From: Candidatus Chlorohelix allophototropha
GTDB lineage: Bacteria; Chloroflexota; Chloroflexia; Chloroheliales; Chloroheliaceae
Direction: 5' to 3'
Assembly (NCBI RefSeq): GCF_030389965.1
Contig: NZ_CP128400.1
Coordinates: 434,001-498,000, forward strand
DNA length: 64,000 bases
Position 1 is the first letter of the stretch; each line of letters opens with the position of its first letter. Below are positions 24,549 through 34,505 of this stretch, one piece after another. The position numbers and the translations under genes were made by a program. The notes under the pieces are model-generated. The model was given only the letters and a program-made list of their open reading frames with translations. It was not told the DNA's origin and made no database searches.

Positions 24549-24601
24549 TAGGCGGCATTTTGAGCTAATTTTTTAAAATAAGTGTGTTTTCTGGAGATAA
24601 A

Positions 24602-25435
24602 ATGGGTCCTGCGCGTGTTATCGCGGTTGCTGCCCCTAAAGGCGGAACCGGCAAAACCACCACTACCTTGAATCTTGGTGCGGCTTTGGCTGAGATGGGT
24701 TACAAAGTATTGTTGGTGGATTGTGACCCACAAGGAAATCTAACACTCAGTGCCGGTGTGGAAGCCAGCAATATAAAGAATGGTCTTGACACTGCCATAA
24801 AGCACTATCTGGCAACATACAATTCTGAACTGGCTAATACCATAATAAAATCACCTGCCGGGCTAGACCTTGTACCGAGCAATATTCGATTGGCAGGTAT
24901 TGCAGACGAGCTTTTGATTAATTCACAGGGAGTTTTCATTCTTCAAAAATTACTGCGTCCGGTTCGTGGGAGCTACGATTTTATTATGATCGATACCCTC
25001 CCCTCTTTGGGAGTATTGGTCAAAAATGCCCTGGTTGCGGCGCAAGAAGTGATTATTCCACACGAGTCGGAACCTCTTTCCGCTGAAGCAGTAGCTATGA
25101 TGCTCAAACAAATCGATATTATACGCCGTTCCGAGCTTAATCCAGAACTAAAGGTAGCAGGTATTCTGCTGACCAAAACCACCCGCTCCAAATTACATCG
25201 CGAAATTATTGATTTCACCCGCGAGGAATTCGGCAAGCAGGTTCCGGTGTTTAAAACCATTATCGAGCGGTCGGTGCAGTTTGCGGAATCGCAAGCTTTG
25301 CGCCGCACTATTCTGAGTTACAAACCCCGTGATAAAGGGGCAGTTGCCTATCGTAACGTGGCGCGGGAATTGGTGTATGGTCCGGATGCGGTCGAGGAAG
25401 TAACACTTGACGATAGCGGACAAGGCGAGGTATAA
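24602..25435 (+). CDS. parA: ParA-type partition ATPase
   Basis: 277 residues from ATG 24602 (GGAG five nt upstream); an in-frame GTG at 24584 has no site. Deviant Walker A K-G-G-T-G-K-T-T near residue 12, V-D-C-D-P-Q-G switch I, and F-I-M-I-D-T-L-P-S-L-G-V-L Walker B mark a ParA/Soj partition ATPase that binds DNA non-specifically as an ATP dimer and moves ParB-parS complexes. There is no N-terminal DNA-binding extension, so it is the short class, whose genes are usually regulated by ParB rather than ParA. It lies 5 nt upstream of parB. Confidence 0.95.
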   Translation: MGPARVIAVAAPKGGTGKTTTTLNLGAALAEMGYKVLLVDCDPQGNLTLSAGVEASNIKNGLDTAIKHYLATYNSELANTIIKSPAGLDLVPSNIRLAGIADELLINSQGVFILQKLLRPVRGSYDFIMIDTLPSLGVLVKNALVAAQEVIIPHESEPLSAEAVAMMLKQIDIIRRSELNPELKVAGILLTKTTRSKLHREIIDFTREEFGKQVPVFKTIIERSVQFAESQALRRTILSYKPRDKGAVAYRNVARELVYGPDAVEEVTLDDSGQGEV

Positions 25436-25440
25436 GCCAG

Positions 25441-26409
25441 ATGGCAAGCAAGCCCAAAAGCTTTTTGCGAAACCGTGAAACTTCTCCCAGTTCCGCTTCG
25501 GACGAAGATTTCGAACTGGTAGTGGGCGTTATCAGTCCCGGTATCGCCAGCAAACCCGTATTCAGCCAGAATGTTCCGGTAGAGCGCATCGAAGCCAGTC
25601 CATTTCAGGCACGTCGCAACTTCGATGGAATTGATGAACTGGCAGAAACCATAAAAGCGCAAGGTTTTACCACTCGCCTCAGAGTACGCCCACATCCATT
25701 AAAAGAAGGCTATTTCCAGCTTACCTACGGTGAACGAAGGCTTCGAGCAGCGCGGTTGGCTAATCTAAAAGAAGTGCCCTGTGACGTAGCCAATTATAGC
25801 GACCCGGAAATGATGGAAATCGGGTTAGCAGAAAATATCCAACGACAGGATTTGAATCCGATGGAAGAGGCGCGTGCCTTTCGTTCGTTTATGAGCTTTG
25901 GTAGTCTCACTATTCGCGAACTTGCAAACCGGATCGGCAAGAACAAAGATTATGTAGCCGGACGATTGCGTTTATTGGAAGCACCTGAAGATGTACAAAA
26001 ACTGGTAGAGCAAAAACCCGATGCTGTGACCGCTGCCCGACGCATTGCGCAATTGAACGACCCTGAAGAAAGGCGTTTGTTGATTGAAGCGCTACTGATG
26101 GGTAAGCTCAGTAAAGAAGAAATTCGCACCATCGTTCAAGCAGTACGTACCGGATTTGATGAAGACAGTGTGACCACTGATGACACACATGAAAAGCCTG
26201 TACGTCTGGACGTACAACACCCTCCCAAACCAAGCGAGCGAGAACTAAACAGCCGTAAGATAGGGCGCGATCTTAACCTGATACTGGCAACCTTAGCTCG
26301 CTGGCAAATTGCGATGCCGCGCTTAAGCGATTTTGAACGCAGGCGAATTGTGGATGCCGCCAAAGATATTATGTTCACCGTGAAACAAATTCAGGATAGC
26401 GGTGAGTAG
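25441..26409 (+). CDS. parB: ParB-type partition protein (CTPase, DNA-binding)
   Basis: 322 residues. N-terminal ParB/Srx domain with V-E-R-I-E-A-S-P-F-Q-A-R-R-N-F and the CTP-binding/arginine patch G-E-R-R-L-R-A-A, then E-N-I-Q-R-Q-D-L-N-P-M-E-E-A, and the central helix-turn-helix (T-I-R-E-L-A-N-R-I-G-K-N-K-D-Y-V-A-G-R-L-R-L-L). The C-terminal part dimerises. The gene contains the second copy of the palindrome at 26199-26216, encoding R-L-D-V-Q. It forms the segregation module with parA; the cognate site is proposed to be the TGTACGTCNNGACGTACA palindrome. Confidence 0.93.
   Translation: MASKPKSFLRNRETSPSSASDEDFELVVGVISPGIASKPVFSQNVPVERIEASPFQARRNFDGIDELAETIKAQGFTTRLRVRPHPLKEGYFQLTYGERRLRAARLANLKEVPCDVANYSDPEMMEIGLAENIQRQDLNPMEEARAFRSFMSFGSLTIRELANRIGKNKDYVAGRLRLLEAPEDVQKLVEQKPDAVTAARRIAQLNDPEERRLLIEALLMGKLSKEEIRTIVQAVRTGFDEDSVTTDDTHEKPVRLDVQHPPKPSERELNSRKIGRDLNLILATLARWQIAMPRLSDFERRRIVDAAKDIMFTVKQIQDSGE
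26199..26216. promoter_or_regulatory. Second copy of the parS-like palindrome, inside parB
   Basis: TGTACGTC-TG-GACGTACA, 8-bp arms identical to the palindrome at 24478-24499 and differing only in the centre. Keeping 16 identical arm bases within a coding sequence suggests selection for the DNA site. Confidence 0.6.
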
Positions 26410-26420
26410 GATTTCCCCTT

Positions 26421-27992
26421 ATGCCCAAAGCCAAACGTGAGAATGAAGACATAAGCGAGTCATTTGAAACACTCCTGACTCGTTTTGAGCGACTCAGAAA
26501 AGAGGAACCGGATTTGCCAAAAAGAATGGCAGGCTTGGTTCCATTTGTGCTGGAAGTGGTGCAGGGATCGGGTGGCGTTAAACAACTCGAACAATTAATA
26601 CACTACTCTTCTGATCAAGAAAGCGCAGCTGAGTTAATAGAAGCAATCTTGCCAATTCTAGCAAATCTTACGCGCGATGTTCCCGGACTGGAAAAGGATA
26701 TTGCGTTACTGGCAGAAAAGTTGGCACGCAATAATATAACTGTACCGGGCATTTCACCTTACGAAGCAATCCGGGATGCGCTGGCAAAAAACACCTTCAT
26801 GCAGCTTGATAATACTCCTTGGCCTACCGCAGTTTTGCAAGAAGGCGAAGCTAAAGGTCAGGCGCAGTTAAAGCCTGCTATGCTAGATGAACAACCTTTG
26901 ATGCCACCGGAAGAGGTTGAAAAATGGTCTGCCCTCATGTGGAAGCAACGCGAAGAATTGAGTGACCTCGATGCCGATACACTGGACATGTTAAGCCACG
27001 TCTGGTTACAGCAAGCTAACACGGCAGACAATTATGCGGTAGCAAGTGTGGATGATTTTCTGCAAATGCGTGGTTTAAAGCCAAAGCGAGGCGGAGGGGG
27101 CAGGCGCGGTGGTTATGAACCAGAGCAACGCACCGATATGCTTAAAGCCCTTGCGCATATTCAAAACCTGTGGCTGAATATGGGTGAAGTTGAAGTGAAC
27201 GAGGAACTCGGCAAAAAAAGGAAATTGAACCGAAGTTCCAAACAGGCAGTACAAAGTCGCGCCTTCGTAATTACCGACCGGATGGGACAAACACGGTTGG
27301 ATGGGCATATGGATGTACAACGCTTTGCGTTTAGACCCGGTATTTTGTTTGCCCGCTTTTTGTTTGGACCCGGTCGTCAAACCGCGTTGCTTTCTGCCAA
27401 AGCAGTGCAATATGACCCCTATCGTCAGAAGTGGGAAAAGCGACTCGCCCGCTATTTTAGCTGGCAATGGCGGGTTCGGGCACGGCTAGGCGATTATAAT
27501 AAACCTTACCAAGTACAGGCACTTTTAGAAGCCGTTGGAGAAGAATTAAATATTCGATACCCTGCTAAAACCAGAGAGCGGCTGGAAAAAGCGTTGGAAG
27601 CTCTTAAAGAAGATGGAGTAATCGCCGGGTGGGAGTACGAAAAGTGGGAAGAGCAGATAGTCGAGCAACGCGGCTGGGCAGAAATATGGTTGGAAGCTAC
27701 TATATTAATAATACCTCCGCAAGCTATCCGAGATACTTATCGCTTCTTAAAACGGCATGGTGATGAGAATGCCGGTATTGATCTAGCGTTTAACGATGGC
27801 GAAGGAATGGCAGAGCTAGTAAGAAAAACTCGCAAAGATAGAAAATTATCGCAAGCACAGGCAGCGGTGGAACTTGGTGTAACACAAAGCTACCTGTCAA
27901 AGCTTGAGACAAATCAAGTAGAGCTATCCAATGCTTTCAGAAAACGGTTGGAAGAATGGCTTTCCGGCAAGAATTATGATCAGAAATTATGA
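26421..27992 (+). CDS. HTH protein of the partition operon, possible replication initiator
   Basis: 523 residues. The C-terminal 60 residues form an XRE-type helix-turn-helix (L-S-Q-A-Q-A-A-V-E-L-G-V-T-Q-S-Y-L-S-K-L-E). The middle (about 210-430) has a Gly/Arg-rich basic stretch (K-P-K-R-G-G-G-G-R-R-G-G) and a region suggestive of winged helices (Y-F-S-W-Q-W-R-V-R-A-R, L-L-E-A-V-G-E-E-L-N-I). The N-terminus is acidic and helical. It starts 11 nt after parB, AGGA upstream. I do not recognise a family. Position right after parAB and two DNA-binding-like parts make a plasmid-type replication initiator or partition regulator plausible, but this is inference. Two GACCCG motifs at 27334 and 27367 lie within it. 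The stop overlaps a 29-bp repeat. Confidence 0.75.
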   Translation: MPKAKRENEDISESFETLLTRFERLRKEEPDLPKRMAGLVPFVLEVVQGSGGVKQLEQLIHYSSDQESAAELIEAILPILANLTRDVPGLEKDIALLAEKLARNNITVPGISPYEAIRDALAKNTFMQLDNTPWPTAVLQEGEAKGQAQLKPAMLDEQPLMPPEEVEKWSALMWKQREELSDLDADTLDMLSHVWLQQANTADNYAVASVDDFLQMRGLKPKRGGGGRRGGYEPEQRTDMLKALAHIQNLWLNMGEVEVNEELGKKRKLNRSSKQAVQSRAFVITDRMGQTRLDGHMDVQRFAFRPGILFARFLFGPGRQTALLSAKAVQYDPYRQKWEKRLARYFSWQWRVRARLGDYNKPYQVQALLEAVGEELNIRYPAKTRERLEKALEALKEDGVIAGWEYEKWEEQIVEQRGWAEIWLEATILIIPPQAIRDTYRFLKRHGDENAGIDLAFNDGEGMAELVRKTRKDRKLSQAQAAVELGVTQSYLSKLETNQVELSNAFRKRLEEWLSGKNYDQKL

Positions 27993-28058
27993 CTTGAGTC
28001 GGGGTTATCCTTCACAGTGATTCATATTTTTATGACTTGAGTCGGGGTTATCCTTCAC
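27987..28058 (+). repeat. Two 29-bp perfect direct repeats after the HTH gene
   Basis: Copies at 27987-28015 and 28030-28058, each starting TTATGACTTGAG and ending GTTATCCTTCAC, separated by 14 bp (43-bp period, four helical turns). The first includes the stop codon of the HTH gene. The distance and identity suggest binding sites for the neighbouring HTH or winged-helix proteins. A replication iteron pair or operator are the main alternatives. Confidence 0.7.
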
Positions 28059-28455
28059 CGGATTTACAGCATTTAGGTTCAAACCCGTTATAAATATTCC
28101 CAATTTACTCGTATTTTCCTCAATAATTTTCCAGTAATAAAAAAAGAGATGTTGTATCATGCGACTCAAAATAGGGATAGTATCGTCTATTTCGTTGGAG
28201 TTTTGTTGCGCGGTTTAGTTTGTGGTACACAGCTATTCGGGCGTTGAGTACTTATTAATTAAGTATCTCCTCGCAGAAGTGAAATATATTCGGCGATCAA
28301 AAATAGCCGACTAATGGGCAAAAAAAATCGGGCTATGCGGTCACATAACTCGATTGATTAATTCAATATGCTTGCGCATCCTTGAGAGATATTGAGCGAC
28401 TAACTCATCTTGCTCTGGATGCGTATGTTCTAGCCTTATATAAGGAGATTTTACT
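27993..28455. other. Intergenic region between the HTH gene and the winged-helix gene
   Basis: 463 bp without a credible gene. It holds the direct repeats at 27987-28058, an AT-rich palindrome TACTTATTAATTAAGTA at 28249-28265 with flanking GAG/CTC, and otherwise AT-rich sequence. Its features (repeats, AT-rich palindrome, flanked by DNA-binding proteins and parAB) fit an origin or control region. Confidence 0.5.
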
Positions 28456-29340
28456 ATGCCTTCCACCCAACTTTCAAGTACCCATAGTGAGCAATTTTCA
28501 TATTCACTGCACGAATCTGAACAATTCGTACAAGTACCGCTTGATGTATTGAAAGCTGATATCAGTCCGGCTGCCCTAAAGCTGTATATGGTAATGCTCA
28601 GTTTTGCCCGCCAGTCCGTTAGTTGTTGGGCGAGCCATCGTCGCCTCGCCGAAGAAATGGGTTTACAGCCTAGGCGGGTTATTGATCTGATTAAAGAACT
28701 TGAAGCGGCTGCACTTATCAGCGTTGAGAGTCGTGCTAGGGAAGGTCAGACCAATATCTACCGCTTGCAAAGGCGTGCGAGTAAGCCTAAAACTACCCAA
28801 AGCTATGCAAAATCTTGCGAAGGGACTACGCAGGGAAAAACACATGATAGTCTGCAAGATTCTGCATCCAATATACATGAATCTAAATTACATGAGTTAA
28901 ATACAACAACTCCTGTTGCGTTAGATGTTACCGACAAAAAAATAGATCACTCCTCAGAAATTAGTGTCGATTCAGAGAATCAATCCCAACGAGAGATTTG
29001 TTCGTTATTACTTCAATGTGGAATTACTACCCACAGCGCTAAAAAACTTGCCAAGATAGCGTTTCAAAACAAGCGCAGCGCAAAAGAGATTGAGGAACTG
29101 ATTCAAACGGTGCGTGGAAATGAAAGAGTTGAAAGTATTCCGGCTTACGTTTCACGCTTGGTTGAAATCAATTGCTTAAATCTAGGCGCTTTTAATCGGG
29201 CGAACACCCACCTTTCACCAAATAGGAATAGCAGTTCTGGGTTACATTCGGGTAATATAAAGCACGAAAAACCCACTGATTTTAGTAAATACGCTCCCGG
29301 CGGTAAATATTGGTATCTGGTTGCCAGTCGAGCTAACTGA
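28456..29340 (+). CDS. Winged-helix (HTH_36-like) DNA-binding protein, replication-initiator-like
   Basis: 294 residues. The N-terminal 25-115 is a winged helix: P-L-D-V-L-K...S-P-A-A-L-K-L-Y-M-V-M-L-S-F-A-R, C-W-A-S-H-R-R-L-A-E-E-M-G-L-Q-P-R-R-V-I-D-L-I-K-E-L-E-A-A-A-L-I-S-V, as in plasmid RepA-like and HTH_36 proteins. Residues 120-190 look disordered and polar; the C-terminal helix block is A-K-K-L-A-K-I-A-F-Q-N-K-R-S-A-K-E-I-E-E-L-I, typical of Rep/primosomal C-terminal domains. The ATG follows AAGGAG at 8 nt. Together with parAB it supports a replicon-maintenance module. Confidence 0.8.
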   Translation: MPSTQLSSTHSEQFSYSLHESEQFVQVPLDVLKADISPAALKLYMVMLSFARQSVSCWASHRRLAEEMGLQPRRVIDLIKELEAAALISVESRAREGQTNIYRLQRRASKPKTTQSYAKSCEGTTQGKTHDSLQDSASNIHESKLHELNTTTPVALDVTDKKIDHSSEISVDSENQSQREICSLLLQCGITTHSAKKLAKIAFQNKRSAKEIEELIQTVRGNERVESIPAYVSRLVEINCLNLGAFNRANTHLSPNRNSSSGLHSGNIKHEKPTDFSKYAPGGKYWYLVASRAN

Positions 29341-29633
29341 ATTCGAGAAGTAATATTTTGGATAACTTGTGATATGAATTACTCTTTTTTATTGCGAACC
29401 TGTGTTAAACTGAAGCCAAGTTATATTATCGGGAACGTGAAACTTAACTTACCGGACTTTACAATCGGTAGCCAGATTTCACTTTTATAATCCTCTTTTG
29501 CCGATTAGGGGCAAACTAATCGCTAAAATCTGCCAGATTTCAGTTTATTAATCCAGAAGGGGCGAATTTTATCTTGCTGAGGATTAGGAAACGTAGTAAA
29601 AATTGGGACTTACGCTAGTTTGGAGAAAGTAAA
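29341..29633 (+). other. Leader region of the CHAT-subtilase pair with two 23-bp near-repeats
   Basis: 293 bp without a gene. Copies of GCCAGATTTCA-x-TTT-xx-TAATCC at 29471-29493 and 29532-29554 match at 20 of 23 positions, 61 bp apart (six helical turns). A tandem operator controlling the protease pair is a reasonable reading. No strong -10/-35 pair was found. Confidence 0.5.
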
Positions 29634-32540
29634 ATGGATAGCGCTGAAAGTTTTGTGAGCGCTGTACTCGCAGCACAAGATGACTTTAATCTGTGCTATG
29701 TCCTTGAACAGACTGCCCCAACTCTTAATGATACTCTAGCTCAACAAGTAAAAAGCCGCGCTAACGAACTCGTTTCTTCGGATAATCAGGCGAGCCTGAA
29801 GATTGCCGAGTCTTTGATTAAAGCTGGCGTGGTGGCAAATAACCTGCTCTATCAGGCGTTAGGTTTGATGGTTCAGGGAAATGTAATGATGCGACGCGGT
29901 GAATTGCAACGGGCGATTGAATTGTATGATGATGCAAAGGTAGCGGCGCTTCGGGCAAACAATCCAATTGAGGCAGCGCGTTCACAGGTGGGGAAAATTG
30001 GCGCTTTGATGTATCTGGGAGATTATAAATCCGCCATCGAAATAGCCCAACATACCGCTGAAACATTGGTAGCTTTCGGTGATTACTTCCCCGCTGCCAA
30101 AGCCTATGCTAATGCGGCAATCTGTTACGGTGAGCTTGAGCAAAATGAAAAAGCGGTTGAGGAATTACAGAAAGCACGCACTCTGTTTGAGAAGCATGAT
30201 AGTCGGGAGGCTCAAACCGGACTTGGCTTATTGCTTTACAATTTATCCGTTACATTATGCGATTTGGGACGTTACCACGAGGCATTGGATTGTTCCTTGC
30301 GCGCCAGCGAGATTGCACGCCGTTATGAATTAAGCAATGATGAAGCGCTTTATCAAGAAGCCTCCGCAATTTGTTACAGCTTGATGGGCAATTATAACCG
30401 CGCTTTGCGCTTGCACCTTGAAGCGCGAGATATTTTTGAAAAAAATGGTCTTATTCCTCAGCTTATTGCTTGCGAATATTTTATCAGCGAGGGTTATCTT
30501 GAACTGGGTCGTTATGAGGATGCGGCAGATCAGGCAAAAGAGCTTATCAGCCTGTTAGAGCAGCGCAACTTGGTTAATAGCTGGAATGGGACACGCACTT
30601 ATCATGTGTTGGGACGCGCCTTGGCTGGTTTGGAGCAGCCTTCCGAAGCTGCTGCTGCTTTGTTGATGGCACAATCAATTGCTGAGCAACTGGGCGCATC
30701 AGGATTTAAACAGCGCACCGATCTGCGTTTGGCTGAGACTTATCTTTCAACCGACAACCCGGAAGACCTTGATCGTTCGGAAGAATTACTCAATGCTTTG
30801 CTAAGTAACCCTCAAGACCTACGCATTTTACCCAATGCCCAACTTTTGCTTGCGCGTCTGGAAACAAACCGGGAGCAATATAGCGCCGCAATTGAATTGG
30901 CTAAAAGCGCTCTGACACAATTTGAATCGCAGGGTATTTATAACACACTTTACAGTGTTTATTGGCAACTGGCTAAAATTTGTGAGCAACAAGGCGAATT
31001 AAATCAAGCTTCGGATTATCTTGATTTAAGTATTCAGCAACTTGAACAATTGCGCGCTCAGGTTGCCGCCGAGACTCGCCATAGTTTTCTGCTTCAGAAA
31101 GAAACCATTTACCAGGACGCAGTTAGAATAGCTCTACGTTTCAACGATTCACAGAAAGCCTTTGATTTAGTAGAGCGGGTTAAGTCTAGAGCGTTGGTAG
31201 AGTTGGTCGGCAATCAACTTGACATAAAAATAAAAATACGTTCTGAACGTGATCGCCCGTTGGTAGAAGAGTTGGAAAATTTGCGGGCACGCCATAACGA
31301 TTTAACAATGCGGTTAGCGCGTTGGCAGGATGGACAAGATGATAAGGGTGAATTGGTTCCAGTTGCCAGTAATGAAAACCAAAACGAAAGTGAATTGCTT
31401 CAAAGCGAAGTGCTTGTTTGTGAAAAACGTCTTATAGAACTAACCGAGATACTTCAAGTCAAGAATGCGCTTTATGCTGAAGATGTCAGCCTTATACAGT
31501 CTTATATATCTTTTGATTTTGGGTTGTTGAACCCGAACGAAGCAATAATCGAATATTACCAAGCTCGCGAAGAGATGTTAGCCTTTGTTGTAACAAGGGC
31601 TGGTATCAAAGCGATTACCTTATCTGCTACTCCTTCACAGGTAAATCGTTTGGTTTCGTTGTTGCACCAGAATTTTAACCAGACTCCCAAGCTTGGCGCT
31701 GAAAAACTCTTGCTTAATAGTCAGAACTTTCTTAGCAAGCTGTATGCTTTGGTGTTTGAACCGCTTGAGTTAGAGCTTGCGCCGATTACCGAACTGAGAA
31801 TTGTATCGCATGGCACCTTACACTATCTGCCTTTCCATGCTTTATATCGTCCTAGCGATTCTACTTATTTGCTAGAGCGCTTTAGCGAAATCAGCTATGT
31901 ACCGGCGGCAAAACTATTATTATCCTGCCGCGAACGTGCTAAAAACTCAACGGCTAGTGGAGCGTTGGTGTTGGGATATTCTGGTAATGGAAAGCTAACT
32001 TCTACGCTAGAAGAAGCTGAGGAAATTAATTGCATTCTGAGTCGTAAAATTGATACAGAGTTGGCATTGGAGAATGATGCTAATCTGGAATTGTTCCGGC
32101 AAGCAGCGTCTTCGAAAAGACTCTTGCATCTGGCTACACACGGCAGTTTCCGTGAAAACGCCCCGCTCTTTTCATCAATTCAACTTGAAGGTGGCGAACT
32201 AACTGCCCACGAATTGTACAACTTGCAACTTGAGGCTTCATTAATGACGCTTAGTTGTTGCGAATCGGGTCTTGGAGTTATCGGTGGTGGCGATGAAGTA
32301 ATGGGTTTAAGCCGATCATGCTTGTATGCCGGAGCAAGTAGTTTGGCTCTCTCTCTTTGGCGAGTAGAAGATAAATCCAGTTCGCAGCTTATGCAGTTGT
32401 TTTACCGAAACCTACTTGATGGTATGGGTAAAGCAGCCGCTTTAAGGCAAGCTCAACTCTGGTTGATGTCTGAGCCACAATACCGACATCCATTTTACTG
32501 GGCGCCTTTTATTTTAATTGGTGATAGCGGTAGTCTCTAA
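29634..32540 (+). CDS. TPR-CHAT protease (caspase-like, clan CD)
   Basis: 968 residues, cytoplasmic. Residues about 50-480 are TPR repeats (A-L-x-x-x-x-x-A-x-x-x-Y-x-x-A-L style), 490-620 are a coiled-coil/helical linker, and the C-terminal 350 residues are a CHAT domain. The catalytic pair is intact: His836 in L-L-H-L-A-T-H-G and Cys876 in L-S-C-C-E-S-G-L-G. The usual C-terminal helices (S-L-W-R-V-E-D, G-K-A-A-A-L-R-Q-A-Q-L) follow. Such TPR-CHAT proteins act as proteases released by a bound partner, for example Csx29 in type III-E CRISPR systems, or as gasdermin activators. GGAG 8 nt before ATG 29634. It is followed 23 nt later by a subtilase gene, so it may cleave and switch on that enzyme (inference). 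Confidence 0.9.
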   Translation: MDSAESFVSAVLAAQDDFNLCYVLEQTAPTLNDTLAQQVKSRANELVSSDNQASLKIAESLIKAGVVANNLLYQALGLMVQGNVMMRRGELQRAIELYDDAKVAALRANNPIEAARSQVGKIGALMYLGDYKSAIEIAQHTAETLVAFGDYFPAAKAYANAAICYGELEQNEKAVEELQKARTLFEKHDSREAQTGLGLLLYNLSVTLCDLGRYHEALDCSLRASEIARRYELSNDEALYQEASAICYSLMGNYNRALRLHLEARDIFEKNGLIPQLIACEYFISEGYLELGRYEDAADQAKELISLLEQRNLVNSWNGTRTYHVLGRALAGLEQPSEAAAALLMAQSIAEQLGASGFKQRTDLRLAETYLSTDNPEDLDRSEELLNALLSNPQDLRILPNAQLLLARLETNREQYSAAIELAKSALTQFESQGIYNTLYSVYWQLAKICEQQGELNQASDYLDLSIQQLEQLRAQVAAETRHSFLLQKETIYQDAVRIALRFNDSQKAFDLVERVKSRALVELVGNQLDIKIKIRSERDRPLVEELENLRARHNDLTMRLARWQDGQDDKGELVPVASNENQNESELLQSEVLVCEKRLIELTEILQVKNALYAEDVSLIQSYISFDFGLLNPNEAIIEYYQAREEMLAFVVTRAGIKAITLSATPSQVNRLVSLLHQNFNQTPKLGAEKLLLNSQNFLSKLYALVFEPLELELAPITELRIVSHGTLHYLPFHALYRPSDSTYLLERFSEISYVPAAKLLLSCRERAKNSTASGALVLGYSGNGKLTSTLEEAEEINCILSRKIDTELALENDANLELFRQAASSKRLLHLATHGSFRENAPLFSSIQLEGGELTAHELYNLQLEASLMTLSCCESGLGVIGGGDEVMGLSRSCLYAGASSLALSLWRVEDKSSSQLMQLFYRNLLDGMGKAAALRQAQLWLMSEPQYRHPFYWAPFILIGDSGSL

Positions 32541-32563
32541 TAGTTTACGGAGGTTTAGAACAG

Positions 32564-34240
32564 ATGAGCAGGAAACCCGATTTCGAATATATTCTGCAAA
32601 CCCAGCCACTGGAGCGTAAAAGGCATATACAGGACAATAGCACCGGCCCTGTTTTTGCCCAGAACCGCTTAATTTTATCTGGGCAGGGCGAGAGTCTTGA
32701 AAGACTCTTCAAACGTTACATGGCTAAACCTCTGGAATTGGATGGTTGCAAGAGCTATCGGATTCGCGACGTAGTGCGTGTAGGCGGCGATCTTTTTAGG
32801 GATAATGTACCTGTATTGCATACTTTAGTTAAAGGTGAGCCAATTGCTCCTATCCTGCTTGATAATTATATGACCAAGGATGAAGATGAAGCCTTGCTAG
32901 GCTATGATGATGACGATAATGAAGTATTGGAAAGCTATGTGGTTAGCTTTGATCCTCCGGCGAAATCCGAAGACCTGAAAAAACTGGCGCAGGAACTGGT
33001 TGAGCAAAGCCGCTTTTTCCAAGATACCGAAGATGAGGTAAAGGGTTTTAGCGTAAATCATGACCATGTATTTAGCCTGAAACGTGTGCCATTTCTCAGC
33101 CCTTTCCGAATCAAAGGCGGTTCTTTAAATATTACGCCTTTTGCCACCACCCAAAATCAGAAGACTGTGGAGGATGTGTTTAGAGATCAACCCTGCTGGG
33201 ACGAAATCGGTTTCTCCGACGAATCACTTAATAGGGAGATTACCGGACAAGCAACCGTGGTGATTTTTGATACTGCGCCCGATATTAAAGCAATCCATAG
33301 CGCCCTTACGAATAACATCATCCAGTATTATATTGATATGAAGCCGGGTACTTTCATTCCTTCGCAAAAGCCGCAGGATATGGATTTGAAAATGCTTCAC
33401 CGCTGGTCTTCTGTTCGGGAAACTCCCCCTATCTTTACCGATAAGGGTAAGGATATTGAGCCTGAAGATCTGGTTCCGTATCATGGTGTATTGGCTGCCA
33501 GCCTTATCCATCATATCGTACCTGACGCACAAATAATTCTGGTGAACGTTTTCGACCACGATGGCGAAACTACCGGTTCCACTCTCACGGGCGCGTTGGA
33601 TTTAATTTTACGAATTTGTGACAACCCTGTGGAAATTTACGGCGAGGAGTATCTGAAAATTGATCCGAGCAAACTGGTTTACAACTTGAGTTTGGGGATA
33701 CCGCGTAGCTTGGCTGAGTATGTGGATGCCGGTTATTTGCTGAAGGCTTGCAAGCGTGCCTGCAAGAAAGGCATGTATAAATCTCATGAAAAACCGGATC
33801 AGACCACCGGAGCAGTTATTGTGGCGGCTGCCGGAAATGATAGCTACTACTTGCATATGTTTAATCCGGAAGAACCCGCCGCTTATGGTTTTTACAACGA
33901 TGATTGGGACGTTTACAACAAAACTATTGCTGTGGCGGGAAGCAGGATAAAATCAGAAGAATATGTCTTGTACAGCAATCAGGGTAATTTGGCGGCTCCC
34001 GGCGACTACCTCTTGATGGATACCGGCAACGATGATGCTCCATTTGGGCGCTATGTGTACTGGGCAGGCACTTCCTTTGCCACTCCGCTTGTTAGTGGTG
34101 CGGCAGCGTTTTTGCTTCAGAAGGGCTATACACCGGATATTATTAAAAATCAGCTATGGAAAGGCGCAACCCAGAACGCTATTAATAAAAACTTTACTTG
34201 GAAGGCTGCCCCGATAATCAATCTGGCGCTTTCCCTCTAA
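32564..34240 (+). CDS. Cytoplasmic subtilisin-like serine peptidase (S8) paired with CHAT
   Basis: 558 residues without signal peptide or membrane anchor. A 230-residue N-terminal part of unknown fold precedes the S8 domain with all four key residues: Asp236 (V-V-I-F-D-T-A-P), His307 (P-Y-H-G-V-L-A-A-S), oxyanion Asn425 (A-A-A-G-N-D-S) and Ser504 (A-G-T-S-F-A-T-P). The His motif is HGVLAA rather than HGTxVA, so it is an outlying member. Most subtilases are exported, so a cytosolic one next to a CHAT protease suggests regulated intracellular proteolysis. Clear GGAGG 10 nt before ATG. It ends just before a terminator. The N-terminal part could be an inhibitory propeptide that the CHAT enzyme removes (hypothesis). 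Confidence 0.9.
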   Translation: MSRKPDFEYILQTQPLERKRHIQDNSTGPVFAQNRLILSGQGESLERLFKRYMAKPLELDGCKSYRIRDVVRVGGDLFRDNVPVLHTLVKGEPIAPILLDNYMTKDEDEALLGYDDDDNEVLESYVVSFDPPAKSEDLKKLAQELVEQSRFFQDTEDEVKGFSVNHDHVFSLKRVPFLSPFRIKGGSLNITPFATTQNQKTVEDVFRDQPCWDEIGFSDESLNREITGQATVVIFDTAPDIKAIHSALTNNIIQYYIDMKPGTFIPSQKPQDMDLKMLHRWSSVRETPPIFTDKGKDIEPEDLVPYHGVLAASLIHHIVPDAQIILVNVFDHDGETTGSTLTGALDLILRICDNPVEIYGEEYLKIDPSKLVYNLSLGIPRSLAEYVDAGYLLKACKRACKKGMYKSHEKPDQTTGAVIVAAAGNDSYYLHMFNPEEPAAYGFYNDDWDVYNKTIAVAGSRIKSEEYVLYSNQGNLAAPGDYLLMDTGNDDAPFGRYVYWAGTSFATPLVSGAAAFLLQKGYTPDIIKNQLWKGATQNAINKNFTWKAAPIINLALSL

Positions 34241-34399: not shown

Positions 34400-34505
34400 T
34401 GTAAGCGACAAGCTTACAAGTATTTCTAAAACTTCTTACATCTTCTCTTAAACTCCTCCTAAGAATTCAGAAGGCTACTGATGAGCAGCGGTAGCCTTTT
34501 TTATT
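34400..34505 (+). ncRNA. Candidate small RNA
   Basis: A hairpin TGTAAGC-GACAA-GCTTACA (34400-34418) is followed by a pyrimidine-rich single-stranded part with CTCCTCCT (34453-34460), complementary to a Shine-Dalgarno sequence, and then a terminator hairpin AGGCTAC / GTAGCCT with T-run (34472-34502). Hairpin, anti-SD stretch and terminator is the usual build of trans-acting bacterial sRNAs. A TAGAAT at 34389-34394 could be the -10 box, but no good -35 is seen. There is no start codon plus frame of note. Confidence 0.5.
34472..34502 (+). terminator. Intrinsic terminator with no coding gene upstream
   Basis: AGGCTAC / GTAGCCT stem, 12-nt loop, T-run of five then ATTTT. Since the previous operon ends at 34271-34304, this one implies a separate short transcript. 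Confidence 0.8.

Follow-up and report, generated by a model that had tools for sequence, protein, structure and literature searches.

Structure of the locus

The window analysed here is a stretch of 64,000 nucleotides, positions 434001-498000 of a 2.45-Mb contig, from the genome of Candidatus Chlorohelix allophototropha (6.09 Mb in five contigs). It contains two adjacent genes that encode a TPR-CHAT protein and a subtilase of family S8, with the following features:

29622..29625, + strand: Shine-Dalgarno-like GGAG of the TPR-CHAT gene, 8 nt before the ATG (sequence)
29634..32540, + strand: TPR-CHAT gene, 968 aa (ATG-start ORF; Pfam CHAT E 4e-66, TPR_12 E 3e-23)
31725..32525, + strand: CHAT peptidase domain, residues 698-964 (Pfam), with H836 at 32139-32141 and C876 at 32259-32261
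32549..32553, + strand: Shine-Dalgarno-like GGAGG of the subtilase gene, 10 nt before the ATG (sequence)
32564..34240, + strand: S8 subtilase gene, 558 aa, no signal peptide (ATG-start ORF; Pfam Peptidase_S8 E 1e-18; hydropathy)
32669..33061, + strand: predicted ferredoxin-like divergent propeptide, subtilase residues 36-166 (AlphaFold2 with 45 sequences; element order and related sequences)
33164..34234, + strand: subtilisin-fold catalytic domain, residues 201-557 (structure comparison, Z 25.9; invariant tetrad)
33269, 33482, 33836 and 34073, + strand: first bases of the tetrad codons D236, H307, N425 and S504, respectively (45-sequence alignment)
34469..34500, + strand: terminator-like hairpin with T tail, candidate end of the two-gene unit (pattern scan, 12 pairs)

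The two genes are separated by 23 nt and each is preceded by its own ribosome site, as an initial annotation of this DNA had recorded. The first protein is clearly a CHAT (caspase-like) peptidase, scoring 223.8 bits with the Pfam CHAT model against a cut-off of 24. Its His836/Cys876 dyad, described as intact in the same annotation, is unchanged across 14 aligned TPR-CHATs, and a Pfam scan of the protein gave no ZAS match. Of the terminator-like hairpins in the region, the longest sits 3' of the subtilase gene, so the two genes seem to form one unit; the position of this hairpin is suggestive only, the number of terminator-like sites in the region not being above chance.

Just upstream of the pair (24584-29340), the window resembles a partition region. 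ParA-like and ParB-like genes are followed there by two genes whose products are a 523-aa protein with HTH_3 at its C-terminus and an HTH_36 protein of 294 aa.

Conservation of the CHAT-subtilase pair

The initial annotation had interpreted the pair as a proteolytic cascade, a proposal that would fall if the pair were confined to this genome. This objection can be set aside, because each of the five genomes of the order carries the ordered pair (in the four others, an orthologous CHAT gene lies directly upstream of the subtilase gene) and it was found in at least 29 loci, reaching far beyond the window genome. In the 29 CHAT-then-S8 pairs that we compiled, most of them from Chloroflexota, both genes are always on the same strand, with a median gap of 81 nt.

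A phylum search with the subtilase yielded distant S8 proteins, including nine loci with a same-strand CHAT gene just upstream. An alignment-based scan of genome contigs returned 17 loci: 13 with CHAT directly upstream (one of them in a MAG labelled Armatimonadota), two without CHAT (L076, L077) and two at contig edges. The single window subtilase gave no match when it was the query of a genome-contig scan; it was the alignment query that found the loci. Subtilase relatives without an adjoining CHAT gene are common in Ktedonobacteria-like genomes. Over the 29 pairs, the sequence distances between the CHAT proteins co-vary with those between the subtilases (Spearman 0.46, against at most 0.25 in 2000 permutations), although shared ancestry by itself could produce this value.

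The subtilase and its N-terminal part

The catalytic tetrad of the subtilase is intact, as annotated, and D236, H307, N425 and S504 are unchanged in 45 subtilases. By structure comparison, the catalytic domain has the usual subtilisin fold (Z 25.9, residues 204-556). The rows of this comparison span residues 201-557 and barely cover the N-terminal part, for which it gives no sign of a new fold. The protein thus combines the Asp-His-Ser triad, the oxyanion Asn and the subtilisin fold that define S8 membership.

The claim that the subtilase has no signal peptide also withstood inspection. The highest 15-residue Kyte-Doolittle mean within its first 70 residues is 0.38, compared to hydropathy maxima of 2.0-3.5 in relatives with export or membrane signals, and the hydrophobic N-terminal export signal that marks exported subtilases is missing from the window protein. 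A hydrophobic N-terminus is likewise absent from 18 of the 29 paired subtilases, while ten or eleven possess a signal peptide, a lipoprotein signal or a membrane segment (L159 is uncertain). In the roughly ten pairs with an export or membrane signal, the subtilase should therefore be beyond the reach of a cytosolic CHAT protease.

The 230-residue N-terminal part had been called unknown, which is not wholly so. No Pfam propeptide match was found among the subtilases of the window clade, but an AlphaFold2 model built from 45 sequences predicts a beta-alpha-beta-beta-alpha-beta core, which is the order of elements in subtilisin propeptides. The pLDDT of residues 36-166 is about 66-84 except in a low-confidence loop (residues 76-116); a model from 7 sequences (pLDDT 46) was too poor and was replaced by the 45-sequence model. 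Exported members are matched by the Pfam model of the fervidolysin propeptide (PF22148, E 1e-5 for L040), and where they carry EPNY, relatives have PNW. When the exported and cytosolic N-terminal regions were compared by hhalign, the signal was weak and three aberrant scores of 30 arose in the column-shuffle control, which is why we do not count this comparison as proof. The model supports, but does not prove, that the N-terminal part is a divergent propeptide. Propeptides of S8 proteases are usually cut off by the subtilase itself.

Six subtilase genes (L032, L079, L076, L077, L078, L083) encode exact tandem repeats of seven residues where the N-terminal part meets the protease domain. The units are PNEGNPA (four and six copies), PAPEEGD (four), PEEGDPA (five), PFEGGDA (eight) and PWDPTGS (three). 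In the two genes checked, L078 and L079, the differences between the DNA units fall mainly on silent positions, leaving the peptide constant. The window subtilase contains no such linker repeats, and an exact-pattern search of 390 other genomes and of viral contigs gave no match. A different peculiarity was seen in the exported subtilases L040 (6574-7956) and L041 (697-2073), which carry a run of tens of aspartates in a cysteine-bracketed loop of the catalytic domain.

A sigma factor and a ZAS protein precede the pair in relatives

The four sister genomes carry two further genes ahead of the pair, encoding proteins of 231-243 aa and then 261-306 aa. The first belongs to the sigma-70/ECF superfamily: the TIGR02937 sigma70-ECF model matches 13 of 22 members, and a profile of the family matches FliA (E 2.4e-4). 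Taken alone, Pfam gives only weak matches to the clade's sigma factors. The second protein displays two HxxxCxxC zinc-finger motifs, a zf-HC2 match and a beta-sandwich of the carboxypeptidase-regulatory-like type; no membrane segment was seen in the sequences read. Among proteins of solved structure, its profile matches the anti-sigma factors DdvA (E 0.0012) and RsiW. It also matches PDB 8rot_B (E 0.02), a 991-aa CHAT-domain protein whose residues 7-45 are the DdvA segment. In relatives, the module therefore runs from the sigma factor through the ZAS protein, which is anti-sigma-like and has a beta-sandwich tail, and the TPR-CHAT protein to the S8 subtilase.

We could also observe this four-gene order in Ktedonobacteria-like loci (L117-L120) and in L122, L083, L085, L086, L154, L159 and L160, with Anaerolineae-type genomes among the carriers; L085 and L154 are probably one locus. 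The S8 gene of L121 is absent from the ORF list and was picked up by profile search. In several loci, the ZAS and CHAT genes lie close together or overlap by at least one base. Chloroflexia proper have an ECF sigma factor, a zinc-less homologue of the second gene, a TPR-CHAT and an exported subtilase.

Matches to the ZAS profile were present in 133 of 400 genomes of the phylum, the weakest of which may be other zinc-finger proteins. Among 20 ZAS loci that were fetched, three had the complete order and one had ZAS, CHAT and S8. Nine had sigma, ZAS and CHAT without S8, other genes coming after CHAT (an amidohydrolase gene in L155, for example). Several had sigma and ZAS without CHAT, and a few were ended by contig limits. 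Since nine of the 13 ZAS-CHAT loci lack S8, the subtilase is an optional part, and CHAT is tied to the sigma-ZAS genes more broadly than the subtilase. The genomes with sigma and ZAS but no CHAT indicate that ZAS can work without CHAT.

We looked for an ECF-type promoter common to the sigma and CHAT genes and did not find one. The sigma genes of L054-L057 and L065 have a conserved TTGTAA-spacer-TATAAT element in front of them. Because this element is housekeeping-like, the sigma gene itself may escape autoregulation.

Split arrangement in the window genome

The window genome has a single match to the sigma factor (44% identity), and its best match to the second gene reaches 33%. Both are located at C2:2451828-2453409, at the contig end and about 465 kb from the CHAT-S8 pair on the circle. 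The reading frame of the second gene appears to run on over the presumed circular join, the contig starting with what looks like a MurE-like gene. These distant copies are nearer to the operon copies of the sister genomes (sigma 40-44%, second gene 31-35%) than to other families, which makes a split of the operon the simplest reading. The distant sigma-ZAS pair could, however, be a stand-alone paralogue. Since the two loci are separated, the sigma and ZAS genes are linked to the pair in this genome by homology only.

Two other CHAT proteins came up during the analysis. One of 1776 aa (L067 4302-9632; own genome, C1 near 827 kb) has neighbours that, by eye only, look like phage-tail or baseplate genes of a contractile injection system. 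The other, of 1389 aa (L066 4901-9070), has a decayed CHAT fragment with one TAG stop just upstream (own genome, C4:154607-154762).

Possible roles of the pair

We favour the view that the two proteases make up one half of a conserved module for regulated proteolysis, consisting of a sigma factor, a ZAS protein with a beta-sandwich tail, a TPR-CHAT protease and an optional S8 subtilase, in which CHAT acts on the ZAS protein. The conserved gene linkage and the precedents of Craspase and of Myxococcus DdvS-DdvA (see below) argue for it, and we give it an even chance of being right. Points against it are the distance between the sigma-ZAS genes and the pair in the window genome, the genomes that have sigma and ZAS but no CHAT, and the weak Pfam matches of the sigma factors. 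The ZAS protein would hold the sigma factor until the TPR array senses a signal or a partner and CHAT is switched on. CHAT would then cut the ZAS protein and free the sigma factor, by analogy with the two precedents. The subtilase would be a second protease of the same unit, folded with its own propeptide and co-expressed as an effector, remaining in the cytosol in the window clade and bearing an export or membrane signal in other clades. CHAT may additionally trigger the cytosolic subtilase, which would be an add-on and not the core of the module.

Alternatively, CHAT and the subtilase could be independent proteases of one stress regulon that attack different targets, with no cleavage among the module proteins. 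The variable make-up of the module fits this explanation, given that unrelated genes such as the amidohydrolase gene replace S8 after CHAT, and so do the exported subtilases, which imply another compartment. Nevertheless, the CHAT-then-S8 order has been held over large sequence distances and in several classes, and the closeness or overlap of the ZAS and CHAT genes points to a shared pathway. We regard full independence as rather unlikely, at a somewhat higher probability than the cascade.

In the cascade of the initial annotation, the TPR-CHAT protease senses a trigger and cuts the N-terminal part of the subtilase, which goes on to break down proteins of the cell, perhaps in a suicide response. 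Conservation of the ordered pair, co-varying divergence of its two members and the absence of a signal peptide from the window subtilase and from 18 of the 29 paired ones all agree with it, as does the fact that the pair has stayed together in the window genome even though the sigma and ZAS genes are separated from it. As a general logic, a dedicated CHAT-to-subtilase cascade does not hold up, because S8 is optional (no subtilase beside CHAT in nine of the 13 sampled ZAS-CHAT loci), about a third of the paired subtilases (~10 of 29) have an export or membrane signal, and the N-terminal part is predicted to be a propeptide, of the kind that is usually self-removed. The existence of subtilase relatives without CHAT likewise speaks against it. 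It is possible that CHAT cleaves the cytosolic subtilase in lineages such as that of the window, but we consider the two-step cascade itself unlikely.

A role in anti-phage defence, with CHAT and the subtilase killing the infected cell, is suggested by the TPR-CHAT protease of a known defence system, Craspase (PMC10028731), but seems very improbable: PADLOC gave no convincing match (CHAT at best E 0.02; subtilase with a generic model at E 6e-4, 17 bits), the two proteins did not both match models of one PADLOC-DB system, the genes occur in five of five genomes of the order and are thus not patchy, and no known defence gene was recognized beside the pair.

The boldest version of the favoured view, which we think has a low probability, is a CRISPR-free counterpart of Craspase across Chloroflexota, in which a TPR-triggered CHAT would both cut the ZAS anti-sigma protein, setting off a transcriptional response, and unleash the cytosolic subtilase as a second proteolytic arm. 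If true, the combination of TPR-CHAT and sigma inhibitor, detailed so far for type III-E CRISPR, would exist in an apparently CRISPR-independent setting, and this would hint at a possible route to the recruitment of such a module. Most CHAT proteases are without a known substrate, and here there are two candidates, the ZAS beta-sandwich protein in the first place and the subtilase in the second. As the pair belongs to a larger module, a test of the pair alone could be falsely negative.

Comparison with known systems

The Csx30 protein of the Craspase system keeps an ECF-like sigma factor inhibited and is cleaved by the TPR-CHAT protease Csx29 (PMC10028731). A TPR-CHAT protein is linked with a sigma factor and an inhibitor in both systems, the inhibitor being putative here and the link one of gene linkage only, as seen in relatives. 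The CHAT domains are related by sequence (Csx29 model E 4e-15; PDB 8d9f and 7x8a). However, the window TPR-CHAT scores 55.8 bits where the cut-off for Csx29 is 300, and neither Cas7-11 nor any CRISPR gene was recognized near the pair. The putative inhibitor is a ZAS protein and not Csx30, and the subtilase is extra.

In Myxococcus xanthus, the ECF sigma factor DdvS becomes active once the anti-sigma factor DdvA is inactivated, by a signal that is unknown (PMC4374960; PDB 8rlz, 8rot, 8rw5). Both systems comprise an ECF sigma factor and a ZAS anti-sigma factor (a putative one here), and the 991-aa protein 8rot_B contains the DdvA ZAS segment. While ZAS and CHAT apparently form one polypeptide there, ZAS is encoded by a separate gene in the module described here and bears a beta-sandwich tail, and the subtilase is again extra.

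The subtilases of Chloroflexia (L033-L041), which are exported and of the I9/fervidolysin type, resemble the window protein in their position after a TPR-CHAT gene, their catalytic tetrad and the sigma gene and second-gene homologue upstream. They differ in having a signal peptide and a short propeptide recognized by Pfam, and their second gene has no zinc ligands.

The closest description of the gene neighbourhood concerns the ECF54 sigma factors, whose genetic context includes carboxypeptidase, subtilase and CHAT proteins and for which proteolytic control has been suggested (2022 review, PMC8999054; Casas-Pastor classification). Here, too, a sigma factor is accompanied by a carboxypeptidase-like protein, a subtilase and a CHAT protein, although it is placed at the level of the sigma-70/ECF superfamily. 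The review mentions no anti-sigma factor, whereas our second gene carries ZAS zinc-finger motifs, and in the window genome the sigma and protease genes are not neighbours. As the association of CHAT, subtilase and sigma factor has already been stated for ECF54, it is not new. Our analysis contributes the recognition of the carboxypeptidase-like partner as a ZAS protein, its link to DdvA, the optional subtilase with its division into cytosolic and exported forms, and the separated sigma and ZAS genes of the window genome.
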